12,209 nt of DNA from Bacteroidota bacterium. GTDB taxonomy: Bacteria; Zhuqueibacterota; JdFR-76; DREG01. Position 1 is the first letter of the stretch; each line of letters starts with the position of its first letter. A program made the position numbers and the translations under genes. Positions 1 to 12,209 of this stretch are shown one piece after another. Location: assembly GCA_030624545.1 (NCBI GenBank), contig JAUXJX010000016.1, positions 1 through 12,209 of the forward strand, given 5' to 3'. Below the pieces are notes generated by a model. The model was given only the letters and a program-made list of their open reading frames with translations, was not told the DNA's origin and made no database searches.

Positions 1-215
1 ATTGAAGTGGCGTTGGTTGGACCCGTCTGCAGATGGCGGGAAGACCCGAATAACGCTCCCACAATGGAGCCCACCATGAAGGCATACAGCCCATATTGGG
101 GATCAACGCCGGCAATGAGTGCATAGGCCATGGACTGGGGCAGAGCAACGAAGGCTACGGTTAGGCCCGCGCTGAGGTCATGACGAAGATTTTGACGGCC
201 GTAAGTGGATTGCAT
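1..215 (-). CDS. SulP-family anion transporter, N-terminal part (cut by window edge)
   Basis: The reverse strand from 215 reads an open frame of 71 codons that runs off the left edge without a stop. The peptide begins MQSTYGRQNLRHDLSAGLTV and continues with PQSMAYALIAGVDPQYGLYA and, further on, LQTGPTNATS. The P-Q-(S/A)-M-A-Y-A-L motif, the PxYGLYA turn and the TGPTNATS segment are hallmarks of the first membrane helices of SulP/SLC26 transporters, which move sulfate, bicarbonate or other anions across the inner membrane. The ATG at 215 is the first in frame after an upstream stop within the repeat tract. No convincing Shine-Dalgarno sequence precedes it, and a heptamer array begins only about seven bases upstream. 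It follows the molybdoenzyme on the same strand after a 388-bp spacer, so co-transcription is uncertain. The family call is firm. The transported anion and whether a STAS domain follows are not visible. Confidence 0.88.
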   Translation of the reverse strand, partial: MQSTYGRQNLRHDLSAGLTVAFVALPQSMAYALIAGVDPQYGLYAFMVGSIVGALFGSSRHLQTGPTNATS

Positions 216-603: not shown

Positions 604-3462
604 TCACTTCTTCTTATAAAACATCTCCTCCGCTGGCCGCAATGGTCGATTCAGCCATAGAGGTCTGCGCAATCCGTTTGGACCGGGTGCGGGACGAGCG
701 AGCTTCAGCCATTCTTTGTAAATCTGGAATGACTTTTCAGTATCGATGAACACATCTCCGTATTGATCCTCCGGACGGGCTTTTTCAATCCGCACCTTTT
801 GATGCCAGCAATGCATGCCGCTGACCGGATCGGGATGAACCGGAAAGGTGATATTTTGATGCACTCCTCCATCGCTCCAAAATATTCTGGAAGAATCCGG
901 GTCAGGGCTCTCGAAAGGACGGATTCCTTCCAGTTGCGTCATCTTCCATTTTCCATCCTGTCGCTCAACAGACACCAAATTGGTTGCCCAGCGATTTCCC
1001 TTGGCATCTTGCGGCCGGCGCCATCTTCCGAGATGATGTGAGCAGGCCACGACTCCGGGTTTCATGCCCTCAGTGACCCAAACCCGGTCGACAAAATAAC
1101 CGATATCAGTATTAACCCGGATCAAATCACCGGAGCGAATGCCCAGGCGCTGGGCATCAGATGTGTGCATCCATACCGGATTCCGATTGGAGATTTCCGC
1201 CAGCCATTTGGCATTTCCGGAGCGGGAGTGAATCAAGGTTGGCAATCGAAATGTCGGCACCAGAGGAAATTCACCTTTCTCCGGAGCCAGATGATCCGGG
1301 TGCACATGACTCTTGACATAGGTTGGAATCCTAAATTCCGGCCAGCCCCAATCAACCATGGTTTGAGAATAGAATTCCTGCTTGCGCGACGGCGTAGGAA
1401 AACCCGTGCAGGCCACTTCGTCCACTATAACTCCGACGGCCTTGCCATTCTTGTGAAGGGTTCCGGTTTTGGGATCGGGGCTTGCATCCCTGGTTTCGTC
1501 GTCGGAAAGCTCTTTCAGATGCTTGTCATAGGATGTCTTTTCAACCTCAAAGGCGCCATATTTGCGCATGAAGTCCAGCGGCGACAACGACTCTTCCGCT
1601 GCTTTTTCCGTCAATCCTTGAGTATGTTCGAATAGATATTGATAGTATTCGTCGATTGTGATTTTCTCTCCTGGTCGGTAGGGCGAAATAAAATGCTCCT
1701 TGATACCGAGGCTGCCATCCGGATCAATCCGCCACGACAGCTCAATCCAGAATTCGTCCTCCTCCCATACTTCCCACGGGTTGGCTTCATGAGTGAACGT
1801 AACCGGCTTGCCCATTTTTCGAGCCGCTTCCCGCAGCACCGGCTGGCGGAAGGCGATCCACATGCCGGAATGCGTTTCATAACTGATGAGGTCGTGCCGC
1901 TCGCTGGCGTGGCCCATGGGCAGAACGTAATCGGCAAAATAGGCGGTTTCGTTCCAGGTTGGAGTAAGCGCGGCATGGAGGCCGATCTTGCTCTCATCCT
2001 CAAGGACCTCGATCCATGAAAAGCCGTCCGGATAGGTCCAAACCGGATTGAAAACGCGGGTAAAATAAACATCTAACTTGCCCCTGCCCTCTTTGAGAAA
2101 ATGCGGCAGCAGAAAGCTCATCTCGTAATGGGCGAGAGGATACTCTTTCGGAAAATGCAGCTCATTCCAGAATTTCTGTGCTGGCGGTTTGTCGAATACC
2201 GCAGGCTTGAATTTGTTCCAGCCGCTTGGCGAAGTTCCACCGTACGAGCCTACGCTACCGGTCAAGACATTGAGAAAATGCAGACAGCGCGCCACGGCCC
2301 ATCCTCCCAAATTACCGCTGCCTGCGCTGCGCCAATTGTGGGAAGCGAAGCGAGTTCCGGCGTCCCCGATTTTTCTAGCCACTTCCACAATGGCTTCCAC
2401 CAGCACACCGCTCTCGCGCGCAGCAAACTCAGGTGTGTACTCTTTGTATGCTTCTTTCAGCAGCATGATGAAATTGGAAAATGTGACGTTTGTTTGAGGA
2501 TGCTCCTTGACCAAAAACTCCTGCCAGTTCACCCAGTTTCGCAGGAACGTTTCATTGAACAGATTCTCGTCTAGAATTACCTTCGCCATGGCGAGAAGCA
2601 CTGCAGCCTCACTGCCGGGATAGGTCGGCATCCAGTAGTCAGCCATGCTGGCGGTGTTTGAAAGGCGTGGATCCATGACGGCCAGTTTGGAGCCGCCCAT
2701 CAATCCCTCGATAATGCGCTGGGCATGGGGATTGAAATAGTGTCCGGATTCAAGGTGCGCGCTGATGAGCAGAATAAATTTGGCGTTGGCGTGATCCGGC
2801 GAAGGCCGGTCGAAGCCGTGCCAGATGGCATAACCAAAGCGGGCGCCGGCAGAACAGATATTGGTATGGCTGTTGTGCCCATCCACCCCCCAGGATTGCA
2901 GAACACGATCCATATATCCTTCGTGGCCCGGTCGGCCGACATGGTAAACCACTTCATTGTTGCGCTTTTCCTGTAATGCCTTTCGAATACGTCCGGCAAT
3001 GTCGTCCAGGACCTCATCCCATGAAACCCGCTGCCATTTGCCCTCGCCGCGTGCGCCGTTGCGCTTCAGGGGATAGAGAATTCGGTCCGCATCTTTGATC
3101 TGGTTGATTGTGGCGGGCCCCTTGGCGCAGTTGCGGCCGCGGCTGCTGGGGTGATAGGGATTACCTTCGAACTTGCGGACCTGCATGTTTTCTTTGTCGA
3201 TATAGCTGAGGAGTCCGCAACCCGCCTCGCAGTTGAAGCAGGCTGTGGGTACGATGACGTAATGTCTGGCATCCCGGCGCGGCCAGCTCTTGGCTTCATA
3301 TTCGACCCAGTCATCCCATTTTTCGGGAGGAGGATAATCTCTTAAATTCCCCGGTTCCAGGAGGCTGGGAAGATCCGGGCCGAGATCGTCATGAAGATTA
3401 GGAATAAGGTGAAGTGTTTCGGAAATTTTTTCGATTAAGCCAGGTTTATGGCTGGCGGGCAT
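604..3462 (-). CDS. Cytoplasmic molybdopterin oxidoreductase, catalytic subunit (DMSO reductase superfamily)
   Basis: A 952-residue catalytic subunit of a complex iron-sulfur molybdoenzyme. Visible are an N-terminal [4Fe-4S] site C75-x2-C78-x3-C82-x29-C112, followed by a Lys (K114) typical of the electron relay, then the bis-MGD catalytic domain. Cys203, in SHTNICSAGARFG, sits where Cys/Ser/SeCys/Asp ligates Mo or W in the family and is the likely metal ligand. A C-terminal dinucleotide-binding domain covers about residues 725-910, with a MHCWHQKVRIEKA segment near its end. The first 65 residues hold no twin-arginine signal with a hydrophobic stretch, so the enzyme should stay in the cytoplasm. 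GGAGAA (3467-3472) lies at normal distance from the ATG at 3462. It follows the FeS/membrane subunit by 68 bp, and the two should form a quinone-linked complex. Superfamily is certain; substrate (sulfur oxyanion, other oxyanion or organic compound) and direction are unknown. It resembles neither NarG (Asp ligand) nor periplasmic NapA. Confidence 0.9.
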   Translation of the reverse strand: MPASHKPGLIEKISETLHLIPNLHDDLGPDLPSLLEPGNLRDYPPPEKWDDWVEYEAKSWPRRDARHYVIVPTACFNCEAGCGLLSYIDKENMQVRKFEGNPYHPSSRGRNCAKGPATINQIKDADRILYPLKRNGARGEGKWQRVSWDEVLDDIAGRIRKALQEKRNNEVVYHVGRPGHEGYMDRVLQSWGVDGHNSHTNICSAGARFGYAIWHGFDRPSPDHANAKFILLISAHLESGHYFNPHAQRIIEGLMGGSKLAVMDPRLSNTASMADYWMPTYPGSEAAVLLAMAKVILDENLFNETFLRNWVNWQEFLVKEHPQTNVTFSNFIMLLKEAYKEYTPEFAARESGVLVEAIVEVARKIGDAGTRFASHNWRSAGSGNLGGWAVARCLHFLNVLTGSVGSYGGTSPSGWNKFKPAVFDKPPAQKFWNELHFPKEYPLAHYEMSFLLPHFLKEGRGKLDVYFTRVFNPVWTYPDGFSWIEVLEDESKIGLHAALTPTWNETAYFADYVLPMGHASERHDLISYETHSGMWIAFRQPVLREAARKMGKPVTFTHEANPWEVWEEDEFWIELSWRIDPDGSLGIKEHFISPYRPGEKITIDEYYQYLFEHTQGLTEKAAEESLSPLDFMRKYGAFEVEKTSYDKHLKELSDDETRDASPDPKTGTLHKNGKAVGVIVDEVACTGFPTPSRKQEFYSQTMVDWGWPEFRIPTYVKSHVHPDHLAPEKGEFPLVPTFRLPTLIHSRSGNAKWLAEISNRNPVWMHTSDAQRLGIRSGDLIRVNTDIGYFVDRVWVTEGMKPGVVACSHHLGRWRRPQDAKGNRWATNLVSVERQDGKWKMTQLEGIRPFESPDPDSSRIFWSDGGVHQNITFPVHPDPVSGMHCWHQKVRIEKARPEDQYGDVFIDTEKSFQIYKEWLKLARPAPGPNGLRRPLWLNRPLRPAEEMFYKKK

Positions 3463-3530
3463 GAAGTTCTCCGTTAATCTAATGAAACAAGTAAGTGGGT
3501 TTTCTGCTCCGACATCATTTTGTTAGACAT

Positions 3531-5201
3531 CTAACTCAACGGTATCAATTGCGGTGCACGCACCCAAATGTGTTCATTAACATAAATCCCAATGAGTGAC
3601 AGAGCGCCGGCCACCGAAAGAAGCCACTGACCTCCAAGCCAGACAAGCGCCAGGGGCAAAATATTGCCGATGAGTACAACCCCGATCCAGAAGCCCGTTC
3701 TAAATCGGCCTGAAGTTATAATCTGTACGGTTTTCTTCGCATCTTCGCCGGAATGGGTCGTGACTATTTCGGAAAATAAATCGAACAGGTTGAAAATGAT
3801 TCCCACGTAGAACACTGCTCGCAGAAAGGAGACCCAGTCTTCGCCGCTCTCAAAAAATGCGGACAGAATCGCAAAGGCTGATGTACCCGCCACAACGGCA
3901 TGGGCAAGCATGTGAAGAACAAGCGCCGGACTCTGCCAAAAGTCTCGGCCTTTGGCCTGGGCAAAAAGGAAGGCCGTGTAAACGGCGGTGACGACAGCCA
4001 GAATCGCAGCGGACCACAAAGCGACGGTCTCGATGGTTCTCCATTCGAGCCACTTTGCTGCGGCCCAAAGTACCAGGAAGCCGCCGTACAGTGTGATGGC
4101 GTAGCCACCGCGCACAAGCCAGGATTTCCATTGCGGCCTGAGGAGCACATAGGCGAATCGCAAAGGTTGATCCAAGTCCTTCACCAGGAAGATTGTTGTG
4201 AGTCCCAGGAAAATCAATCCAACAGCGACACCGGCCCATTGAGTTCTCTCCGAGACAGCCGTAAGACCGGAAACTAGAGCCAGAAAAAGAACCAGGAACG
4301 CGCCGGAGGAAATGGCTTTGGTCCAGATATAGGCAGTAACATCTGTGCCCCAGAGCACCCCTTTGTCAGGGCTATCGTAGACACGCCTCGCTTTTTCCTT
4401 AACAACTTCCATTGCCTTGCGCAGCATCTTGCCGGAATCACCATCGCCTGGGACGAGCACTTTGTCTGGTTCGCCTTCTTCTCCACCAACCCAATTTTCT
4501 CTACCATCATTCTTTCCGGTCAACTGGCTAAGCAATTCAGCCGGATCGGCTTCGGCAACCCGCGCTTCGGCATATTTTGCGAAATGGCCGACGCCGGAAA
4601 GTTGGGAACTCCACATATAGCTTCCGGATCGTTCTGTCGCGATAGGATTCAGCGATGCCTCATCGCCATTGATGTAGAACAATCTTGGCCGAGTGCCTTT
4701 CTCTGCTTTACGAGCTGTCACCTGCTCTCGCGCCAGGAGCTGCGAGATTTCTGATTGTGGATTGTCCATGTCACCGGAAACAATGGCATGAACGGGACAA
4801 ACATTGACGCAAGCAGGTTCGAGGCTTATATCCACGCGATGGGCGCAATAATTGCATTTCGCTGCCGTTTCGGTCTCGGGATCGATATATAAAGCGTCAT
4901 AGGGACATGCTTGCATACAGGATTTACAGCCGATACAGCGGCGTCCGTCGAAATCGACAATGCCGTCCTCTCGATGAAACAAGGCAGTGGTTGGACAAAT
5001 ATCAACGCAGGGCGCGTCCTCGCAGTGATTGCATCTCATCACTGAAAAGAGTCGCCTGGTATTCGGGACTTCTCCCTTCTCAATATACTTCACCCAGGTG
5101 CGATTCACGCCGATGGGCACGTCGTGCTCTGCCTTGCATGCGACAGTGCAGGCGTGGCAGCCGATGCATTTGCGGTTGTCTATGATGAAGCCGTAGTTCA
5201 T
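3531..5201 (-). CDS. Fused DmsB-like four-cluster ferredoxin and NrfD/DmsC-like membrane anchor
   Basis: A 556-residue fusion of two subunits that are usually separate. Residues 1-140 carry sixteen cysteines in four groups (12/15/18/22, 57/60/65/69, 89/92/95/99, 116/119/131/135), the DmsB/PsrB pattern that binds four [4Fe-4S] clusters. Residues about 145-280 form a polar linker. Residues about 285-545 hold roughly eight hydrophobic helices with the NrfD/DmsC-like segment KDLDQPLRFAYVLLRPQWKS (341-360). Such anchors bind quinone, lack haem and pass electrons to or from the FeS subunit. There is no Tat signal. It lies 31 bp after the membrane HdrD-like gene and 68 bp before the molybdoenzyme, which it should wire to menaquinone or ubiquinone. 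The Shine-Dalgarno sequence is weak (AAGAAA), but the start immediately precedes the first cluster motif as in relatives. Role firm; exact family (PsrC, DmsC or SoeC type) not resolved. Confidence 0.88.
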   Translation of the reverse strand: MNYGFIIDNRKCIGCHACTVACKAEHDVPIGVNRTWVKYIEKGEVPNTRRLFSVMRCNHCEDAPCVDICPTTALFHREDGIVDFDGRRCIGCKSCMQACPYDALYIDPETETAAKCNYCAHRVDISLEPACVNVCPVHAIVSGDMDNPQSEISQLLAREQVTARKAEKGTRPRLFYINGDEASLNPIATERSGSYMWSSQLSGVGHFAKYAEARVAEADPAELLSQLTGKNDGRENWVGGEEGEPDKVLVPGDGDSGKMLRKAMEVVKEKARRVYDSPDKGVLWGTDVTAYIWTKAISSGAFLVLFLALVSGLTAVSERTQWAGVAVGLIFLGLTTIFLVKDLDQPLRFAYVLLRPQWKSWLVRGGYAITLYGGFLVLWAAAKWLEWRTIETVALWSAAILAVVTAVYTAFLFAQAKGRDFWQSPALVLHMLAHAVVAGTSAFAILSAFFESGEDWVSFLRAVFYVGIIFNLFDLFSEIVTTHSGEDAKKTVQIITSGRFRTGFWIGVVLIGNILPLALVWLGGQWLLSVAGALSLIGIYVNEHIWVRAPQLIPLS

Positions 5202-5232
5202 GGAATTATTTTCTTGGAAAGATCATCCATCA

Positions 5233-7329
5233 TTAGAGGGCTTCTTCCACAAGCTGAATGATGTCCTTCACTTCAATCTTGCCCTCATTCCCTGAGGTTT
5301 TGACAGCGTCCGAGTACATGGTAAAATCCTTAGGACAAGCAACAACGAAATAGTCGATGTCTCCGAGAGCAAGAGCTTCCTTGATGCGCATTTCGCTGGG
5401 GCGCTCTTCGATATCTGAGTCGTCCATCCAGATCCGGCCGCCACCGGCGCCACAGCAAAATGTGTTTGTGCCGCAGCGAGGCATTTCATAGAGCCCAACT
5501 CCCAGGGCCTCTAAAACACGCCTCGGCGCATCAACTTCTTTGTTGTAGCGACCGAGATAACACGGGTCGTGGTAAGTAATTCTATGATGGAGTTTCCTGG
5601 AGAATTTGATTTTTCCCTCGTCGATCAACTTTGCCAGAAGTCCGGTATAATGGTAAATGGAGTATCCGCCACCGAATTCCGGGTATTCATTTTTAATTGT
5701 ATTGAATGAATGCGGGTCCGTTGTAAAAATCTCCTTGAATTTGGCTTTCTGCAAAACGGCGATATTGTCCTCCACCAGCATTTCAAACAGACCTTCTTCA
5801 CCAACACGCCGGACATCATTTCCCGCGTTTTTTTCGCCATCATATAAAAGGCCAAAATCGATGCCCGCTTTGCTTAGGACGCGTGCCACGGTCCGGGAAA
5901 TATCTTGCAGCCTCGGATCGAAGGACGCATAATCGCCGACAAACCACAAATATTCCGCCGCCTCTTTACGAACATCCTTGACGGCGAAATCCAGACCCTG
6001 GGTCCACGTGCCGCGCATGCGCTCCGGCTGGCCAAAGGAATTGCCGTAATCGCCAACGTTCATCAAGGAATCCTGGAGCATACTATCCATCTTGCCCTCA
6101 TCCACCAGTCGACGCCGCATCTGGACAATGCTGGTTAGATGTTCGATTCCTACCGGACAGGCTTCAATGCACGCCATACAGGTCGTGCAGGCCCACAAGG
6201 TCTCTGGACTGATTACGTCGCCGGCAACTGTGACGCCCTCAGTTTTGCCTGCAGGCCATTTAGAATCGCCGTCTAATCGCTGGCCCACCCACTCATTGAG
6301 GCCAATTGTCGAATCGGCGTAGGTGCGCAGATCTAGAATAAGATCGCGCGGAGATAGCGGCGTGCCCGAAGCGCAAGCCGGACAAGCGTCATGGCAGCGG
6401 CCGCATTTTGTACAGGAATCAAAATCCAGCAACTCCTTCCAGGTAAAGTCCTCGATTATTTGGTAGCCCATGCCTTTTTTCATGGCTTCTTCCGGGATGC
6501 GTGGCAGCCGGCGAGCAGCCAACTCATCCGTAAAGGCCAAATTTACGAAATCGAGAATGATATGCATTGCCTTGGAAAATGGGATCGAGGCGATGAAGAC
6601 CATCACAACAATGGCATGAAACCACCAGGTGTAGGCATGGAGGCTGTTTGCCCATGAAACGAGTCCAAACGAGTCGGTAATATTCGCAATCAGCCACCCG
6701 GCCGGGGACCAGACTTCAAACGCCAGCCGGTCGGCCGCGATGCGAAATCCTTCGATAAGGAACCCCGTTATCCCGATGACAAATAGAAGCCCGAAAAAAA
6801 TCCAGTCATCCACACGATATCCGGATCGCTGATATTCACCCTCTTTGCGATCTACGCGGGCGTAATCCAATTGGGGTGGACGAAGGAACCCGCGTCGAAT
6901 CATCATCATGAGCAAACCGATTAGAAAGAGCACTCCCCAGACATCCAGCACCAGTGAAAAGATGAGGTAGAAGCTTCCCCGGAGCAAATGAAAGCCCAGG
7001 AAACGAAGCATATCGTGATCGATGAAAACGATCACGGTGCCAATAAACAGAAAGACAAATCCCAAGAATATGAGGAAATGTGCCAGTCCGGCATAAACGT
7101 CTTGTTTAAAGATGGTAGAATTACGCGCCATGATGCTCATGGCTCTCATGATCCTCTTTCCGAGATTATTGAAACGATAGGCGGGTCGACCCCTACAGTA
7201 TTTGCGAAATCGCTTGTAAAAACCGTAACAGAAAATCGCCATCCCCACAATTGAGAATATATAGAAAATCAATTGCAGCAAAAATGAGAAGTTTCGAAAG
7301 ATCTCACGCGTGGGAACCACGTCAGGCAT
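5233..7329 (-). CDS. Membrane-bound HdrDE-like Fe-S oxidoreductase (NarI-like domain, ferredoxin domain and CCG domains), probable Etf:quinone oxidoreductase
   Basis: A 698-residue protein. Residues 14-250 hold about five hydrophobic helices (near 14-37, 77-103, 117-145, 174-193, 227-250) with histidines H84, H231 and H238 placed as possible b-haem ligands of a NarI/HdrE-type domain. Two [4Fe-4S] motifs follow: C306/C309/C312/C316 and C381/C384/C387/C391. The C-terminal half is HdrB/HdrD-like. The first CCG repeat (about 460-545) has lost its cysteines (EKNAGND where relatives have CCG; TDPHSFN where CxxC would be). The second keeps C590, C625-C626 and C665 but has CPKD for CxxC. Such proteins beside etfBA are taken to pass electrons between Etf and quinone. 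GGGAGGAA (7334-7341) precedes the ATG. It comes 165 bp after etfA and 31 bp before the FeS/anchor gene. Architecture certain, Etf partnership inferred from context. Confidence 0.88.
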   Translation of the reverse strand: MPDVVPTREIFRNFSFLLQLIFYIFSIVGMAIFCYGFYKRFRKYCRGRPAYRFNNLGKRIMRAMSIMARNSTIFKQDVYAGLAHFLIFLGFVFLFIGTVIVFIDHDMLRFLGFHLLRGSFYLIFSLVLDVWGVLFLIGLLMMMIRRGFLRPPQLDYARVDRKEGEYQRSGYRVDDWIFFGLLFVIGITGFLIEGFRIAADRLAFEVWSPAGWLIANITDSFGLVSWANSLHAYTWWFHAIVVMVFIASIPFSKAMHIILDFVNLAFTDELAARRLPRIPEEAMKKGMGYQIIEDFTWKELLDFDSCTKCGRCHDACPACASGTPLSPRDLILDLRTYADSTIGLNEWVGQRLDGDSKWPAGKTEGVTVAGDVISPETLWACTTCMACIEACPVGIEHLTSIVQMRRRLVDEGKMDSMLQDSLMNVGDYGNSFGQPERMRGTWTQGLDFAVKDVRKEAAEYLWFVGDYASFDPRLQDISRTVARVLSKAGIDFGLLYDGEKNAGNDVRRVGEEGLFEMLVEDNIAVLQKAKFKEIFTTDPHSFNTIKNEYPEFGGGYSIYHYTGLLAKLIDEGKIKFSRKLHHRITYHDPCYLGRYNKEVDAPRRVLEALGVGLYEMPRCGTNTFCCGAGGGRIWMDDSDIEERPSEMRIKEALALGDIDYFVVACPKDFTMYSDAVKTSGNEGKIEVKDIIQLVEEAL

Positions 7330-7390
7330 GGACTTCCTCCCAATGTTTGTTGCCCTCTTAACTCAAGCTAAGACTTGCGCTCTTATCATT

Positions 7391-7488
7391 GAGGTATAGA
7401 GTATAAGGTATAGGGAGATTGGATTCACCTCATACCTATACCTCATTCCTTATACCTTATACCACTCTATACCAGATACCTCAAACCC
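7391..7488. repeat. Head-to-head heptamer arrays forming a long inverted repeat
   Basis: The left part (7391-7412) reads GGTATAGAGTATAAGGTATA at 7393-7412. The right part (7431-7488) is built of TATACCT-type 7-nt units with one 3-nt insertion. The left arm pairs with 7451-7473 over 20 bp with a 3-nt bulge, leaving a 38-nt loop. In the transcript this would be a strong hairpin between etfA and the 698-aa gene. No T-run follows, so RNA processing, attenuation or simple repeat inversion are all possible. Confidence 0.75.
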
Positions 7489-7494
7489 CGGTCT

Positions 7495-8463
7495 CTATCC
7501 CTTCAACTTTTCCGATAACTGACCCACCACGTCAAACAGATCCCCAACCACCCCATAATGAGCATAATCAAAAATAGGGGCATTGGGATCGGAATTGACG
7601 GCGATGATTAGCTCCGCATCCTTCATGCCTTCGATGTGCTCCGGAGCTCCGCTGATTCCGACCGCCAGATACAACTTGGGTTTTACTTTCAAACCCGATT
7701 TGCCAACCTGGCGCGTCTTGGGAAGCCATTTGTTATCGACGATGGGGCGCGATGCTGACAAAACCCCGCCAAGCGCATCCGCCAATTTCTGAAGTACGGG
7801 GAGATTGTCTTCGCTCTGAATGCCGCGGCCAACGCTAACGAGAATATCCTGCTGTGTAATGTCCACGTCGCCGGCTTCAGGTTCGATCAATCGCTTAAAG
7901 CGTATTTTGAGATCGGTGAGACTGTCCGGCGGCGAGACCTCCTCCACCTCGGGAACATTGTCACTTTTGCCGTCTTCAGAAGAGAAAGAGCCCGCGATTA
8001 CTGAAATTATGCAGCGATCTCCTTCAAGTCTAGACTCCACATTCATCTTTCCGCCATAGAGCTGGCTGGTAACGGCAATTGTACCGTTTTTCGCGGATGC
8101 GTCAACGGCATAGGCGACAAGCGGGAGATCGAGATCAACGGAGAGGGCGGCAGCTAAATCCATTCCCATCGAAGTGTTCGGCACGAGGGTGACTTTAGGC
8201 TCGTGAGTCTTGAGAACTTCCATAAGACACTTCGAATACGAATCCGGGTTGAACTCGGCGATCTGTTCGTGGTCGATGCATATAACCTTGTCGGCTTTGC
8301 CCATTTGCCTGTTCAAATCCTCTACCCCGCCTCCCAAAAGAACGCCAACCAGGCTTCCGTCGAGATTATCCGCAAGCTCTCGGCCTTTTCCCAATAATTC
8401 AAATGTCACATCCTCAAGATTTCCCATTAGGTGTTCTGCGATTACAAATACATCCTGACTCAT
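7495..8463 (-). CDS. etfA: Electron transfer flavoprotein alpha subunit
   Basis: A 322-residue EtfA of normal length. The N-terminal half (1-190) is the alpha/beta Etf domain. The C-terminal FAD domain shows GRG (212-214), SRPIVD (238-243), RQVGKSG (251-257), GISGAPEH (269-276), NSDPNAPIF (290-298) and YGVVGDLF (303-310), the standard FAD-contacting motifs. It pairs with EtfB to carry electrons from acyl-CoA dehydrogenases or other flavoproteins, or to bifurcate them. Its ATG overlaps the etfB stop in an ATGA, so the two are translationally coupled; GAGGG lies upstream inside etfB. The next gene is the membrane HdrD-like protein, the expected quinone-side partner. No dehydrogenase gene is in the window. 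Whether this Etf bifurcates cannot be settled from motifs alone. Confidence 0.96.
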   Translation of the reverse strand: MSQDVFVIAEHLMGNLEDVTFELLGKGRELADNLDGSLVGVLLGGGVEDLNRQMGKADKVICIDHEQIAEFNPDSYSKCLMEVLKTHEPKVTLVPNTSMGMDLAAALSVDLDLPLVAYAVDASAKNGTIAVTSQLYGGKMNVESRLEGDRCIISVIAGSFSSEDGKSDNVPEVEEVSPPDSLTDLKIRFKRLIEPEAGDVDITQQDILVSVGRGIQSEDNLPVLQKLADALGGVLSASRPIVDNKWLPKTRQVGKSGLKVKPKLYLAVGISGAPEHIEGMKDAELIIAVNSDPNAPIFDYAHYGVVGDLFDVVGQLSEKLKG

Positions 8464-9227
8464 TGCTTTAACCCTCTTTCACTTAAAATATTCAAGATTT
8501 GATTCGCGACGTCTTCCGCTGAGCCTTCAATCATTTGTGCGCCGTCACTAGTTTCGGGTTTGAACATGCGCTGAACTGTTGTCCCAACGGCTACGCTCAC
8601 GTCACCTGCCGGCATTTCCTCAAGCTCGGTGGAACGCATGGCCTGCCGTACGCGGCTGACAGGGGCGTACCTTGGCGTCTGACGTGCCGCTTGGATTCCC
8701 AACACACCGGGCAAATCGACTTCGAATTCGCCCATCAACCCACCTGAGTACTCCTTGTGGACGATTGCTTTACCGTCCTGCAGATTAACCCCGGTGACTA
8801 CACTCACATGAGGCAATCCCAGGTAATGGGCAAGCAAAACGGCAACCTGACCGTCTCGGTCGTCTGCGGCCTGCACACCGGTCAGAATCAGGTCATATTC
8901 TAGCGACTCCAGGACGTTGGCAAGGGCTTTTGCGGCAACATGGCTTGGAATCGCTTCACCAAAGTCACCGGTCACTTTGATGAGCTTGTCCGCGCCCTTG
9001 GCCGCCGCCGTGTATAATGATTTTTCGATGTCCGCGCTGTCGAGAGCTATGGCCATAACATTCGCCCCGCTTTCTTCTTTAAGACACAGCGCCTCTTCGA
9101 GGGCGTGATCGTCAAATTCGTTGATCTTGTATTTCAGCCACTCCCGGTTGAGGTCTTTGCCGGATGCATCCACCTCCAGCTCCTCCACCAAATCCGTGAC
9201 TTGTTTAATTGGTACGATGATGTTCAT
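8460..9227 (-). CDS. etfB: Electron transfer flavoprotein beta subunit
   Basis: A 255-residue EtfB. It opens with MNIIVPIKQVTD, has INEFDDHALEEAL (35-47) in place of the usual NPxD-A-EEA stretch, and carries the nucleotide loop GVQAADDRDGQV (117-128) followed by LAHYLGLPHVSVVTGV. That loop contacts AMP in classic Etf and the second FAD in bifurcating Etf. Here it has DRDGQV rather than the DGDTAQVGPE typical of NADH-linked bifurcating members, so a different or absent second flavin is possible. AGGAG lies about ten bases before the ATG at 9227. The stop overlaps the etfA start by 4 nt. Upstream is a 313-bp spacer with a gene remnant and repeat arrays, so etfBA may have its own promoter there, though no clear -35/-10 pair was seen. 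Confidence 0.95.
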   Translation of the reverse strand: MNIIVPIKQVTDLVEELEVDASGKDLNREWLKYKINEFDDHALEEALCLKEESGANVMAIALDSADIEKSLYTAAAKGADKLIKVTGDFGEAIPSHVAAKALANVLESLEYDLILTGVQAADDRDGQVAVLLAHYLGLPHVSVVTGVNLQDGKAIVHKEYSGGLMGEFEVDLPGVLGIQAARQTPRYAPVSRVRQAMRSTELEEMPAGDVSVAVGTTVQRMFKPETSDGAQMIEGSAEDVANQILNILSERGLKQ

Positions 9228-9266
9228 GTGCGGGGCTCCTATCGGTTCATTGGTTGGATTGACTCC

Positions 9267-9479
9267 TTATGATTCCTGATGAAAGGTATAGCGTAAAGGC
9301 ATAAGGTATAAGGACGTCCTCTTTTGGCTTCTCACAAAGTTTATATATCCATTGAGGATTTTCTTAGCATCTTCTATCAAAAATATGCCTTCATCCAACA
9401 AGTTTCGATTTATGTAATCCAGATCGTAGCAGCTAATGGGAAGATCCTTTAATTCGTAACGAGACCCACGTGAAATTCT
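9267..9479 (-). pseudogene. C-terminal remnant of a four-helix-bundle (S23/IVP-type) protein gene
   Basis: Reverse-strand codons from 9479 to the TAA at 9267 give 70 residues without an ATG at the front. SRGSRYELKDLP near the start, and LLDEGIFLIEDAKKILNGYI followed by NFVRSQKR, match the last two helices of small four-helix-bundle proteins related to the 23S rRNA intervening-sequence protein (ARGSLxEx..., then ...LNGYIK). A stop lies only four codons upstream of the AGA at 9479, inside the heptamer array, so the N-terminal half is gone. The last dozen or so codons read through the other heptamer array, giving an unrelated tail. It lies between the 421-aa CCG gene and etfB, bracketed by inverted heptamer arrays. 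Family recognition is from memory of conserved motifs. Confidence 0.7.
9283..9313. repeat. Heptamer array, AAGGTAT orientation
   Basis: Four units read AAGGTAT (9283), AGCGTA (6 nt), AAGGCAT (9296) and AAGGTAT (9303), followed by AAGG. It marks the 3' side of the gene remnant and overlaps its last codons. The orientation is opposite to the array at 9486-9541. Confidence 0.7.
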
Positions 9480-9485
9480 GTAGCC

Positions 9486-9541
9486 TATACCTTAAACCTC
9501 ATACCCTATGCCTCACACCCTATGCCCTAAACCTCACACCT
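9486..9541. repeat. Heptamer array, TATACCT orientation, abutting a stop codon
   Basis: Eight uninterrupted 7-nt units: TATACCT (9486), TAAACCT, CATACCC, TATGCCT, CACACCC, TATGCCC, TAAACCT and CACACCT (9535-9541). On the minus strand the consensus is roughly RGGYWTR. The last unit touches the TGA of the 421-aa gene (9543-9541), so the array starts exactly where that gene ends. Confidence 0.85.
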
Positions 9542-10806
9542 CACCCACCCATCGCCCCATCCACCAACTCGATGATATCCCGGACAATCAACTTCCCTTC
9601 GTTGCCGGTAGACTTGACGGCATCTTCAAAACGGGAAACCTCGTAAGGGCAGCAAACTGCCAGAACATCCGCTTCGGTTTCCACCGCCTCCCGAACCCGG
9701 CGCTCGGACAAGCGTTCGATGACGTGGTCGGCCATGAAGCTGTCCAGCCACATACCGCCGCCTCCGCCACCACAGCAATAACTGTTTTCACGGCATCGCC
9801 CCATCTCAATAAGCTGCACATCCGGGATTGATTCGATCATTTGCCGCGGTGCATCGAATTCGCCATTGCGTCGGCCGAGATAACAGGGATCATGGAAGGT
9901 AACCTTGTAATTCAGCTTGTTCTTAAGCTTCAGGCTTTTTACCAAGGGCGCCAGGAATGTGGTATAATGAATTACATCAAACTCACCGCCATAGGTGGGA
10001 TATTCATTGCGGAAAGCGTTCAATGCGTGTGGATCGGTCACCAGAATCTTCTCGAACTTATATTTCTTCAGTGTGCGGATATTTTCCTGTGCGAATTCTT
10101 CGAAGAGGCCTTTTTCGCCCGCCAATCGTTGCGAATCACAGGTACATTTCTCTTCTACGCCGAGGATGCCAAAATCTATGCCGAGAGTATGAAGTATCCT
10201 GGCCAATGCCAAACTGGCGTCTTTCCCACGGGGATGGTATGCCGGATAGCATTCCACGAACCAGAGAACGTCCACCGGCTTCTTGATCTGTGCCATGATC
10301 GGCACTTCGACTTCAGCCTCTTTCGCCCAATCCGCTCGTTTGCGCGGAGATTTACCGATGGGATTGCCGTACTCAAAGGTGTTCTCAAAGGCTTCCTGAA
10401 GCTCTGCCGGAACATACCCCTCCAAAACAGCCTCCTCCCGGACAGCCGGCATAATCTGGATCATATCGACTTCTTTGGGACAAACTCGCAGGCAGTTCAT
10501 GCAAGTAGTGCATTGCCACAAATCGTCATCGTTAAAGAGGTCTAGACCCGCTTGCACTTTGCGATAGATCTTTCTCGGACCATAGTCGCCAACAATTTCC
10601 ACAGGGCAGACCGGAACACACTGGGCGCATTGGTAGCACCATCCTAATGATTCACCGCCATCAAGCGAAGTGATCTTATCCATGAATGCCGTGTCATAGT
10701 CGACCACGATTCGTTGGTCGAACATGCGGTTCCATTCACGGGTCAGCTCGATCCCGTCGACCACCACGCTTTCTTTTTCGCGAATCTGTTCCTTGCCGAC
10801 CGGCAT
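9541..10806 (-). CDS. Soluble HdrCB/HdrD-like (Fe-S)-binding oxidoreductase with CCG domains
   Basis: A 421-residue soluble protein without membrane helices. Two [4Fe-4S] motifs, C57/C60/C63/C67 and C99/C102/C105/C109, form the HdrC-like part. Two CCG repeats form the HdrB-like part. Repeat 1 is degenerate (C186, then CTC at 221-223, and TDPHALN near 257-263 instead of CPHC). Repeat 2 keeps C308, C344-C345 in CCGGGGGG, and C385-C386, but lacks the final CxxC. HdrB-type proteins hold noncubane [4Fe-4S] clusters and reduce disulfides or act as electron relays. It is clearly paralogous to the 698-aa protein's C-terminal half, down to the shared tail GNEGK-x5-DII-x-LV. GGAAG near the end of the preceding gene serves as RBS; only two bases separate that stop from this ATG. 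With the HdrA-like gene upstream it probably forms an Hdr-type complex. Substrate unknown. Confidence 0.9.
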   Translation of the reverse strand: MPVGKEQIREKESVVVDGIELTREWNRMFDQRIVVDYDTAFMDKITSLDGGESLGWCYQCAQCVPVCPVEIVGDYGPRKIYRKVQAGLDLFNDDDLWQCTTCMNCLRVCPKEVDMIQIMPAVREEAVLEGYVPAELQEAFENTFEYGNPIGKSPRKRADWAKEAEVEVPIMAQIKKPVDVLWFVECYPAYHPRGKDASLALARILHTLGIDFGILGVEEKCTCDSQRLAGEKGLFEEFAQENIRTLKKYKFEKILVTDPHALNAFRNEYPTYGGEFDVIHYTTFLAPLVKSLKLKNKLNYKVTFHDPCYLGRRNGEFDAPRQMIESIPDVQLIEMGRCRENSYCCGGGGGGMWLDSFMADHVIERLSERRVREAVETEADVLAVCCPYEVSRFEDAVKSTGNEGKLIVRDIIELVDGAMGG

Positions 10807-10808
10807 AT

Positions 10809-11540
10809 TCAGTCTTCCAACTTGTGCACGCCAAGCAGTCTTCGGGAAAACTCTGGCAATCCGGGCATAACCTTGTTAAACTCCTGGGTCATTCTCATTC
10901 GAAGAACTGTGTATACATAAACGACGTACACGCAGCTCAAATACGCATCAACCCCGAAAGGACCGGTGCTAATTACATCAAATCCCGCCGCTTCGCCGAC
11001 GTGGTGTAGGAAGGCGGTGGCTTTGCCAATCTTAACATAGGACTCGCCCACGCTGGATGCTTCCAAATCGTAATCTTCGGTAATTACCAGGGGAAGAGCG
11101 CCAGTTTGTGTCTTGGGATCCCAAATCCATCTGGTCCATAACCAGAAGTTACCGGGAATGGTGAAATGAAGCAGTTCGCTGGCCAAGTCAGAGCGCATAC
11201 TCTCATTGAGGCCGCCTATTTGATTATGGAAATTCTGAAATCGATTTTGTATTTGATCCTCGCCGTAGAGCAGTTCTGCTATCCATTTCTTTAACAGGTC
11301 GAATTCATATTTTTCAATGATCTCACCCGCTTTGCGTCGTGTGGCGAAAATGTGGCGCAATACGGCATAAAGATCTTCCTCTTTGAATCCATCAAGCTGA
11401 TCTTCCCCCAATTTTGATTGAAATTTGAGACTCTTCCTTTCGAGATCTGAACATACCTGGTTTAGCTCTTCCTGAGAGATCTTGCCGAGGGCTTCTTTCA
11501 TGAATTCTTTTGCGGAATCAATGTCGATAAATTGGGCCAT
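10809..11540 (-). CDS. Conserved-looking hypothetical protein of an Hdr gene cluster
   Basis: I do not recognise a domain in this 243-residue protein. It is predicted mostly helical and acidic to neutral, with a charged N-terminal third (residues 1-110), an aromatic patch FWLWTRWIW (132-140), and one hydrophobic stretch near 198-213 (DAYLSCVYVVYVYTVL) that could be a buried helix rather than a true membrane span. It has only two cysteines (C30, C203) and no cluster motif, so it is unlikely to carry Fe-S itself. It sits between the HdrA-like gene and the soluble CCG protein, with a 2-nt gap to the latter, so the two are tightly coupled. The start at 11540 has only a weak GAAG-type RBS. A structural or docking subunit is the likely role, by context alone. 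Sulfur-oxidising Hdr-like (sHdr) clusters also have a hypothetical gene after hdrA, but homology was not tested. Confidence 0.8.
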   Translation of the reverse strand: MAQFIDIDSAKEFMKEALGKISQEELNQVCSDLERKSLKFQSKLGEDQLDGFKEEDLYAVLRHIFATRRKAGEIIEKYEFDLLKKWIAELLYGEDQIQNRFQNFHNQIGGLNESMRSDLASELLHFTIPGNFWLWTRWIWDPKTQTGALPLVITEDYDLEASSVGESYVKIGKATAFLHHVGEAAGFDVISTGPFGVDAYLSCVYVVYVYTVLRMRMTQEFNKVMPGLPEFSRRLLGVHKLED

Positions 11541-11569
11541 GCTTGCTTCGCGTCAATTGCGTGTTCCGC

Positions 11570-11753
11570 GTCATTGTTGTCATTTGGCTGAAGCCGTCAT
11601 TTAATTGCGGCGAAATAGCTCCACTTATCATCAACCGCCCAAACCTCTTCTCCCATCTCCATGGTCAACTGATAGATTTGAAGCTCCTCCAACTTCATCT
11701 CTATCCTCCCAAAAATGACCTAATGACTATAAATGACACCGTAGGCAAATGAC
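11570..11753. repeat. GTCATT / AATGAC motif clusters in inverted orientation
   Basis: GTCATT occurs at 11570, 11579 and 11596. Its reverse complement AATGAC occurs at 11714, 11722, 11732 and 11748. The two clusters lie on either side of the small gene remnant at 11597-11698 and point in opposite directions. Spacing is irregular (8-17 nt), unlike the strict heptamer arrays elsewhere in the window. Confidence 0.5.
11597..11698 (-). pseudogene. N-terminal remnant of a four-helix-bundle (S23/IVP-type) protein gene
   Basis: The reverse strand encodes 33 residues starting MKLEELQIYQLTMEMGEEVW and continuing DDKWSYFAAIK before a TGA. This matches helix 1 of the small four-helix-bundle family, which usually begins M(K/R)LE(E/D)L-x-IY-x-L-x-ME-x-G-x-x-(V/I)W...KW-x-x-F-AKDTIGKQLVRAADS. 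Here the reading stops just where the KDTIGKQ block should come, so about three quarters of the gene is missing. A good GGGAGG RBS lies a few bases upstream of the ATG, which means the fragment may still be translated. It lies between the HdrA-like and 243-aa genes. Motif recognition is from memory; a chance short ORF is unlikely given the length of the match. Confidence 0.7.
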
Positions 11754-11758
11754 AGTTC

Positions 11759-12209
11759 CTACGACGCCGCCTCTACGCTTTGCCTAACTGCGATCACCGC
11801 CTTCATCACCGCCAGGCCAGCCGCGGAGACGCTATCTTCAAGATCTGCGGGGCCGGTAGAAGCTCCTGCAGCAAAAACGCCGGGCACTGATGTGGTCACT
11901 GTATCGAGGGCTCCTCCCATCGTTTCGATAAATTTATACTTGTTCTGCTTCAAACCGAAAACTTGAGCCATCTCCCGCGTTCCGGAACTAGGTTCCATAC
12001 CGACTGAAAGAACGACAATGTCCATAGGTATTTCAAAGGGCCGTCTTAAGGTTGTGTCTTCTCCTCGGACCACGAGTTTGTCCCCCTTTTTCAGAATTTC
12101 CGTGGCGATGCCTTTGATATAAATCACTTTGTGTTTTTCCTGGGCCGGCCAATATATTTCATTTTCCCAGTAGCCATACATGCGCATATCGATGTAGAAG
12201 ATAAACACC
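11759..12209 (-). CDS. HdrA-like FAD-dependent protein, C-terminal end (cut by window edge)
   Basis: The last 149 or so codons of a gene that starts beyond the right edge; the GTG at 12208 is an internal Val codon, not a start. The peptide shows FYIDMRMYGYWE, then VVLSVGMEPS, PGVFAAGASTGPADLEDSVS and an alanine-rich tail. This is the signature of the C-terminal half of the HdrA/QmoA flavoprotein fold (FYxDxRxxG, VVLxxGMxP, FAAGAxxGPxDIxDSV). HdrA-type proteins carry FAD and, in methanogens and some bacteria, bifurcate electrons between ferredoxin and a disulfide. The protein ends about 30 residues after the last motif, so the C-terminal ferredoxin-like domain of methanogen HdrA is absent, as in QmoA-like forms. 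Presence of N-terminal cluster or flavin motifs cannot be judged. Confidence 0.85.
   Translation of the reverse strand, partial: VFIFYIDMRMYGYWENEIYWPAQEKHKVIYIKGIATEILKKGDKLVVRGEDTTLRRPFEIPMDIVVLSVGMEPSSGTREMAQVFGLKQNKYKFIETMGGALDTVTTSVPGVFAAGASTGPADLEDSVSAAGLAVMKAVIAVRQSVEAAS

Follow-up and report, generated by a model that had tools for sequence, protein, structure and literature searches.

Gene content of the locus

The window, that is the whole stretch of DNA analysed here, is one complete contig (G000:C283) of 12,209 bp. Open reading frames and domain models place eight genes on its minus strand, and the one-strand order given in the initial annotation (HdrA, an unknown subunit, HdrCB, EtfBA, HdrDE and a molybdoenzyme) is correct. 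The first gene encodes the flavoprotein sHdrA (11759..12209), recognised by HdrA models. Because the window is the whole contig and its end cuts this gene, sHdrA is visible only in part, as its last 149 residues. It is followed by sHdrH (10809..11540, 243 aa), identified from its homologs and from its conserved place between sHdrA and sHdrB3, by sHdrB3 (9541..10806), a fused sHdrC2-B2 with 4Fe-4S and CCG domains, by EtfB (8460..9227), assigned from domain models and comparison with the PDB, and by EtfA (7495..8463), in which domain models identify an FAD-binding domain. Next is EtfD, or EMO (5233..7329), a membrane Etf:menaquinone oxidoreductase recognised from 4Fe-4S and CCG domains and from PDB entry 9ojn. 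The molybdoenzyme consists of a SoeB-SoeC-like protein (3531..5201), in which domain models find a ferredoxin-type 4Fe-4S part and an NrfD anchor fused in one frame, and a SoeA-like molybdopterin subunit (604..3462) with Molybdopterin, Molydop_binding and Molybdop_Fe4S4 domains and an N-terminal 4Fe-4S site. A ninth gene on the same strand, outside the span originally annotated, is the start (3-215, within 1..215) of a SulP sulfate permease, of which a domain model recognises the first 71 residues.

The genes for EtfA and EtfB overlap by 4 bp, and the gap between EtfD and the fused FeS/NrfD-Mo module is 31 bp; the spacers between EtfA and EtfD (165 bp) and between B3 and EtfB (313 bp) are present too. 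Four terminator-like sites occur on the minus strand, all of them intragenic. A promoter and terminator scan of the window gave results at chance level, and an Rfam search of it gave no match. The cluster is probably transcribed as a single unit.

The remaining genes are found on other contigs of the same genome. Positions 12166-12209 of the window recur exactly as the opening 44 bases of contig C212, and it is on this 44-base overlap that the sHdrA junction rests. Aligned to a 353-aa sHdrA homolog, C212 covers residues 1-218 and the window residues 205-348. C212 carries the start of sHdrA, then B1 and C1, and together with contig C60 it provides C1, B1, a split LbpA, two TusA, DsrE2, DsrE3 and sLpl. 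The end of LbpA is on C212 and its start is on C60 beside sLpl, and the two pieces are presumably one gene broken by the contig boundary. At the other end, contig C503 overlaps the SulP end of the window at 97%, carries SulP onward, and continues into a MobA-like gene (named by eye).

The block is a type II sHdr cluster

The sHdr proteins form a sulfur-oxidizing heterodisulfide-reductase-like system, of which type II has so far been known mainly through gene order. The block from HdrA to HdrDE is a type II sHdr cluster, in the order sHdrA-H-B3-EtfB-EtfA-EtfD. The available part of PMC11582611 defines type II as shdrC1B1AHB3 with etfAB in one cluster. Here C1, B1, A, H and B3 are syntenic, the window holding H, B3 and the last part of A, and C212 the start of A, B1 and C1; etfAB is within the cluster and on the same strand; C2 and B2 are fused as B3, a protein of 421 aa that has both 4Fe-4S and CCG domains; and both LbpA (in pieces on C212 and C60) and its partner ligase sLpl (on C60) are present. 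The predicted function of the cluster is the oxidation of sulfane sulfur to sulfite.

Clusters of the same kind are Group III of the 2018 LbpA paper (PMC6067878), Sulfobacillus hdr cluster II, and the hdr-etf-tusA-dsrE-lbpA cluster of T. roseum. The resemblance to type II sHdr-LbpA clusters extends to the gene set, the order, the fused B3, EtfBA with EtfD, and the LbpA, TusA, DsrE and sLpl partners. The difference is that here the cluster runs straight on into a Mo module and SulP on the same strand, whereas the descriptions, in the parts available, name no Mo gene. The available part of the PMC12590107 text on KSB1 does not mention the cluster.

Conservation was assessed in 80 related loci, taken as the best 80 out of 130 relatives, which leaves out distant ones. 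sHdrA, sHdrH and sHdrB3 are adjacent and in the same order in all 80, and this constant association of an HdrA, a 243-aa protein and a CCG protein is beyond what chance would give. Other partners in these loci are B1 (76), C1 (69), EtfB (59), and LbpA (65), TusA (63) and DsrE3 (63); a TusA, DsrE, sLpl or LbpA gene was accepted at any plus-strand position of the locus. Each of the 21 loci without EtfB ends no more than 4.9 kb from sHdrB3. The count for EtfD is inflated by its likeness to sHdrB3 and was not used, but where a locus had matches to EtfB, EtfA and EtfD (58 loci), the order was B3-EtfB-EtfA-EtfD in 48.

The former unknown subunit is sHdrH, for which 1010 homologs were found. One of these, L158, is 24% identical and is located beside sHdrA and two separate CCG/Fe-S genes in the type I order (C1B1AHC2B2). 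This type I locus shares C1, B1, A and H with the cluster described here, but in place of B3 it has two separate genes (251 and 305 aa), named C2 and B2 from position, length and inspection by eye, and within 20 kb no member of the Etf/EtfD families was found. The sHdrH of the window matches nothing in Pfam or NCBIfam. Assignment to a named family was rejected, the weak and scattered matches of its relatives (best E 0.00035, in 2 of 48) being taken as chance. A sequence search of the PDB gave no credible match, Foldseek gave none with E < 0.99 in the PDB or viral models, and none was found among plasmids. It is worth adding that the models of two members show a weak likeness to 8-oxoguanine glycosylases (Ogg2, HhH-GPD), although the two models come from overlapping alignments and are therefore not independent.

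The molybdoenzyme resembles SoeABC

The molybdoenzyme most likely belongs to the SoeABC type of sulfite:quinone oxidoreductase, facing the cytoplasm and with SoeB and SoeC joined in one protein, and judging by genomic context its substrate would be sulfite. Like SoeABC of Allochromatium and Aquifex, it has a Mo subunit with an N-terminal 4Fe-4S site (Cys 75, 78, 82 and 112), an FeS protein and an NrfD anchor, and inspection by eye of residues 1-70 of the Mo subunit showed no Tat or other signal-like stretch. Unlike in SoeABC, the FeS and NrfD parts are encoded together in a single gene, and one alignment covers both in 44 of the 60 other Mo loci; in plasmid relatives from Azoarcus and Sulfurovum (33-39%), none of them labelled SoeA, the two stretches are separate. 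The hosts of the fused form are, by title, KSB1, Bacteroidetes, Chloroflexi and Actinomycetota genomes and haloarchaeal plasmids, whereas a 2021 survey, in its available part, gives SoeC in Proteobacteria, Clostridia and Aquificae (PMC8076601).

The nearest solved relatives of the Mo subunit are ArrA (E 1.4e-36) and PsrA/thiosulfate reductase (3.4e-35), and its Cys203 aligns with a Cys in both. These matches would suit a quinol-fed reductase of the polysulfide/thiosulfate/tetrathionate type, which would use electrons from sHdr to reduce another sulfur compound and leave the sHdr-Etf-EtfD part unchanged. We regard this as unlikely, since reductases of that type face the periplasm, whereas no Tat signal is seen here and a cytoplasmic orientation is assumed for SoeAB (PMC8076601, available part); the neighbours include sulfite- and sulfate-type transporters, TusA/DsrE and rhodanese; AprA, of the alternative pathway for oxidising sulfite, is commoner where the Mo enzyme is absent (5 of 16 Mo-negative against 2 of 64 Mo-positive sHdrH genomes, p 0.003, kinship ignored); and the genome itself has two haem-copper oxidase genes.

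Association of the Mo module with sHdr

A Mo ortholog is present in 64 of 80 sHdrH-bearing genomes (40/51 and 24/29 in two sets), a count to which the window genome itself and two members of the phylum picked up via sHdrH (G024 and G035) contribute. At the threshold used it is missing from the other 16, of which 11 also show no AprA. Some of the assemblies lacking the Mo gene may be incomplete. Within the same phylum, the ortholog occurs in 7 of 8 genomes with sHdrH, the present one included, against 11 of 74 without it (Fisher p 6e-5, kinship ignored), where a positive is a match above 50% identity and the weak matches in G036 and G038 (28-29%) count as negative, G036 having a Mo gene. The 14 control genomes of the family search were used only where the search returned them.

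The Mo module is also common without sHdrH, with 16 of 195 genomes in a Bacteroidota order in addition to the 11 of 74 above, and is therefore not an sHdr subunit. In such cases it is often, not always, found with sulfur genes: with DsrE-TusA on Rhodococcus pRHL3, with rhodanese-TauE on a Natrinema caseinilyticum plasmid, and with TusA-DsrE and SulP in G002, of the same family, while in T. roseum and Natrinema halophilum (two of the four plasmid neighbourhoods examined) no sulfur gene lies beside it. SulP follows the Mo gene at 12 of 60 other Mo loci.

Physical linkage was counted in 77 genomes, three of the 80 loci being left out (L039 and L079 as short contigs, L091 as the same assembly series as L090). 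Separation of the Mo and Hdr/Etf operons in relatives had been proposed as the sign of a chance adjacency, and the outcome is mixed: the two are within 19 kb in 11 genomes and on different contigs in 50, and the enzyme is missing in 16. Contigs were equated by equal size, and the 50 include L087, whose locus has the FeS/NrfD gene and the start of the Mo gene, and L029, whose contig ends within the FeS/NrfD gene. The 50 genomes, five of which have more than 20 kb visible on both sides of sHdrH, would fit an adjacency that is a local accident of lineage without functional meaning, as would G024 (40 kb apart) and G035 (separate contigs). Such an accident is nevertheless very unlikely, given the co-occurrence of the Mo gene with sHdrH and the fact that the 11 linked genomes are by title KSB1, Chloroflexi/Chloroflexales/Oscillochloris, Acidimicrobiia/Actinomycetota/Amycolatopsis, Marinimicrobia and Thermoanaerobaculia, with the Mo gene upstream or downstream. 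The adjacency is not obligatory, yet it recurs in several phyla and in different arrangements. Both co-occurrence statistics and physical position link the Mo module to the Hdr/Etf block, and the proposal of one functional neighbourhood stands.

Electron transfer to quinone

The membrane protein is related in sequence to a characterised Etf:menaquinone oxidoreductase, the mycobacterial EtfD (9ojn, E 2.5e-83), the best stretch being residues 365-695 and 347 of the 1042 chain residues. Both are membrane proteins with HdrC/HdrB-like parts that pass Etf electrons to menaquinone; the mycobacterial Etf is served by beta-oxidation, whereas here it is presumably fed by sHdr. Identification as Qmo, Dsr or Tmc was rejected (QmoC 44/300 bits, DsrK 60/400, TmcB 56/735).

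The HdrA is of the short sHdrA type. The homolog L027 (353 aa) aligns over almost the full length with 6tjr (349 aa; residues 5-342, E 5.6e-90), while for the 643-671-aa HdrA chains the best match covers about 240 residues; the long HdrA (about 650 aa) with extra domains, as in bifurcating HdrABC, is not what is found. EtfB is closest to 1o94 (E 5.7e-39), followed by 5ol2 (4.2e-23), 1efp (9.4e-22), 1efv (2.9e-20) and 4kpu (1.4e-19). The latter four presumably include both bifurcating and ordinary Etfs, and since these score alike the Etf comparison is weak evidence. HdrA, EtfAB and CCG proteins are found in known bifurcating enzymes, and the superfamilies are shared with HdrABC/EtfAB, but flavin-based bifurcation, in which Hdr-Etf would divide electrons between quinone and a low-potential acceptor, is highly improbable given the short HdrA, the EtfB nearest to 1o94 (with the weakness just noted), a window without a hydrogenase gene, and a Mo subunit far below the formate-dehydrogenase model cut-off (137 against 666 bits). 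Of the original suggestion that electron transfer or bifurcation is joined to two quinone-active membrane complexes, the transfer of Hdr/Etf electrons to quinone and both complexes are retained, and the bifurcation is dropped.

A predicted route from sulfane sulfur to sulfate

We consider it probable that the cluster serves cytoplasmic oxidation of sulfur to sulfate, by type II sHdr, by EtfBA and EtfD leading to menaquinone, and by the adjacent SoeABC-like Mo enzyme. TusA and DsrE-type carriers would hand over sulfane sulfur to the sHdr complex (sHdrC1-B1-A-H-B3 with the lipoyl protein LbpA), which would oxidise it to sulfite; electrons would leave through EtfBA to the membrane EtfD and on to menaquinone. 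The Mo enzyme would oxidise the sulfite to sulfate, also reducing quinone, while SulP may move the anion and the MobA-like enzyme may make the Mo cofactor. We infer both the direction of electron flow and the transport role of SulP. A serial route through quinone to the Mo substrate, as originally envisaged, is not supported: judging by its genomic neighbourhood, the Mo enzyme would be a second source of electrons for quinone, acting on the sulfite made by sHdr. The two enzymes would therefore feed quinone in parallel, one in going from sulfane sulfur to sulfite and the other from sulfite to sulfate.

The sHdr machine itself is known; what is modestly new is the close pairing with the Mo enzyme and the fused membrane anchor, and the surprise for a specialist is moderate because each half was already known. 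Only tentatively would we suggest that the fused-anchor Mo enzymes form a distinct and widespread clade of sulfite:quinone oxidoreductases, in bacteria and haloarchaea, which usually completes sulfur oxidation by type II sHdr and for which AprAB/Sat can stand in, with sHdrH a re-used HhH-GPD DNA-glycosylase fold. The fused SoeBC-SoeA pair is a testable marker. The link between sHdr and the Mo enzyme would give many uncultured lineages, by genome title KSB1, Saprospiraceae, Chloroflexi, Actinomycetota and Marinimicrobia, a predicted path all the way from sulfane sulfur to sulfate, in which quinone is reduced at two sites and Apr/Sat is bypassed.

Identity of the Hdr/Etf genes

The window, a whole contig of 12,209 bp (C283), carries nine minus-strand genes, and the order of Hdr, Etf and Mo genes on one strand given in the initial annotation is borne out: the end of HdrA, a 243-aa protein, a CCG/4Fe-4S protein, EtfB, EtfA, a membrane CCG protein, a fused ferredoxin/NrfD protein (FeS/NrfD, 3531..5201, 31 bp from the preceding gene), a molybdopterin subunit (Mo, 604..3462) and the start of SulP. 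The 243-aa protein has no Pfam or NCBIfam match. It has 1010 homologs at E <= 0.001. A search with it gave 130 genome loci, and in 80/80 of the best 80 it has HdrA on one side and the CCG protein on the other. The partners in these best 80 of 130 are B1 (76), C1 (69), LbpA (GcvH-like, 65), TusA (63), DsrE3 (63), EtfB (59), DsrE2 (55) and sLpl (49). In all 21 loci lacking EtfB the sequence ends no more than 4.9 kb from B3; where present, EtfB is up to 5.1 kb from B3. For each partner a single representative was checked for domains (CCG, Fer4, DsrE, GCV_H, LplA-B_cat, Radical_SAM, TusA, ArsR-type HTH, Sulfate_transp with STAS).

The Hdr/Etf part is the type II cluster already published for the sulfur-oxidizing heterodisulfide-reductase-like (sHdr) system, described in extracts of PMC11582611 as a single syntenic cluster, shdrC1B1AHB3 plus etfAB, B3 being a C2-B2 fusion. 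Passages in other papers give the name Group III to a similar arrangement seen in Actinobacteria and Firmicutes (PMC6067878), and describe a Sulfobacillus cluster II with Etf and a long HdrC of six transmembrane helices (PMC4378227), and a 19-gene hdr-etf-tusA-dsrE-lbpA cluster in Thermomicrobium roseum, up about 45-fold during persistence (PMC6776052). The 243-aa protein, initially annotated as an unknown subunit, is sHdrH: a homolog of 24% identity (locus L158) follows C1-B1-A and precedes two separate genes of 251 and 305 aa, named C2 and B2 from position, length and inspection by eye; this is the type I arrangement.

Models of two sHdrH members, built from overlapping alignments, give the protein (window 10809-11540) a predicted fold with a weak likeness to HhH-GPD 8-oxoguanine DNA glycosylases (Ogg2). 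Two further conserved families were seen. One, of about 87 aa (L027, a relative's locus, 5582-5890, and homologs), occurs in 16 loci; it separates sLpl from DsrE3 in L027, as it does in the window's own genome, and its representative has no Pfam match. The other, of about 370 aa (L027 15746-16861; L160 7475-8578), is conserved in 7 loci, has a cysteine motif that is radical-SAM-like by eye, and in L027 directly follows lipoyl-assembly genes.

The own genome (2.86 Mb, completeness given as 77%) has the whole sHdr cluster, spread over several contigs. C212, whose first 44 bases match window 12166-12209 exactly, carries the beginning of sHdrA, followed by sHdrB1, sHdrC1 and the tail of an LbpA; C60 holds the start of an LbpA, DsrE3, the small conserved protein, sLpl, DsrE2 and two TusA. 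At the other end SulP continues on C503, and the gene after it looks MobA-like by eye. There, in contrast to the exact 44-bp overlap, window 1-199 matches C503 1-199 at 97%, either because the strains in the bin vary or because a second copy exists. In the Mo-SulP spacer (318-544), stretches 318-352, 374-470 and 494-544 match other own-genome contigs at 79-91% and appear to be dispersed intergenic repeats. The genome also has two genes for haem-copper oxidases, which suggests aerobic respiration.

Electron path

The bifurcation envisaged in the initial annotation is not borne out. The sHdrA of L027 (353 aa) aligns along its length to the short 6tjr, which we take to be Hyphomicrobium sHdrA. 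The best match of the window EtfB is 1o94 (E 5.7e-39), and the next-ranked Etfs are a mixture of bifurcating and ordinary ones that fits either type. The membrane CCG protein matches mycobacterial EtfD (9ojn, E 2.5e-83), the structure of which is interpreted, in extracts of PMC13083937, as an electron wire that links Etf with menaquinone. On balance, the sequences point to plain electron transfer for the Hdr/Etf part.

The molybdoenzyme and its association with sHdr

The Mo subunit has no apparent Tat signal (by eye). Both ArrA and PsrA have a Cys where it has Cys203 in the alignment, at the position presumed to ligate Mo. Orthologs (E <= 1e-150) occur in 64/80 sHdrH-bearing genomes (40/51 and 24/29), the window genome included, with 55-83% identity at the 60 other Mo loci. 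Ignoring kinship, Mo is found within the phylum in 7/8 sHdrH genomes (own included) versus 11/74 others (p 6e-5), and in the Bacteroidota order around G121, a seed genome picked for having sHdrH, in 3/3 versus 16/195 (p 8e-4). AprA (TIGR02061) occurs in 7/80 sHdrH genomes, namely 5/16 Mo-negative versus 2/64 Mo-positive (p 0.003, kinship ignored); 11 of the 16 Mo-negative genomes show neither.

Linkage of the sHdr and Mo genes among relatives is mixed. Among 77 genomes with loci, Mo is on the sHdrH contig in 11, at 6.6-18.2 kb, upstream or downstream and in 9 on the same strand (one KSB1, three Chloroflexi, four actinobacterial including an Amycolatopsis, two Marinimicrobia, one Thermoanaerobaculia); it is on a different contig in 50, five of these with more than 20 kb seen either side of sHdrH, and absent in 16. 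Within the phylum, G032 has on one strand B3-EtfB-EtfA-EtfD-sLpl-LipS1-like, further genes, ArsR-like, FeS/NrfD and Mo, three opposite-strand frames being called between them. sHdrH and Mo are 40 kb apart in G024 and on two contigs in G035. From these counts and arrangements, the direct junction of the window is not general, and the Mo-sHdr association is.

The fused FeS/NrfD protein is matched at 54 of the 60 other Mo loci, with a single alignment spanning both parts in 44; in the remaining 10 the match begins within 235 bases of the fetched end, which would place the FeS part outside the fetched stretch. The fetched flanks of the other 6 gave no match. Plasmids of T. roseum and Rhodococcus and two of Natrinema carry the fused form. 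In Azoarcus (33%) and Sulfurovum (39%) the FeS and NrfD stretches are separate. In the sulfite:quinone oxidoreductase SoeABC, SoeB and SoeC are given as separate subunits or genes (passages in PMC8076601 and PMC5114278).

Gene neighbourhoods and likely substrate

Sulfite as the likely substrate is suggested by the genes found beside the Mo/anchor pair elsewhere. On Rhodococcus jostii pRHL3 the order is DsrE-TusA-FeS/NrfD-Mo-Mrp, and also present within about 13 kb are rhodanese, a TauE-type exporter and MBL-fold hydrolases. In Natrinema caseinilyticum the order is rhodanese-TauE-FeS/NrfD-Mo-Mrp-MoCo guanylyltransferase. G002, of the window genome's family, has TusA-DsrE-(407-aa protein)-FeS/NrfD-Mo-SulP-MobA-like in a genome without sHdrH; there the Mo module either takes part in a different sulfur route or has outlasted a lost sHdr. 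SulP follows Mo at 12 of the 60 other loci; a cable-bacteria model has SulP exporting sulfate (extracts of PMC13293266). In G056, two small membrane proteins, YeeE-like by eye (L165 13938-14939), lie beside FeS/NrfD-Mo, followed by SulP, and possibly provide sulfur import. Speaking against sulfite, the copies of the pair in Natrinema halophilum and on the T. roseum plasmid have no sulfur genes alongside, but amino-acid transport and other genes. The latter plasmid is the 918-kb NC_011961 (L176); sHdrH had no match in the plasmid collection, so the published T. roseum cluster is presumably chromosomal.

Sulfite oxidation was likewise concluded for Sulfobacillus molybdoenzymes without signal peptides (passages in PMC4378227). 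A pairing of type II sHdr with Soe did not turn up in our literature searches, which covered parts of open-licence papers. As a sulfur-oxidation machine the block is of a known kind, and the directly adjoining molybdoenzyme, in its fused-anchor form, is the probable sulfite-oxidising partner of the sHdr machine.
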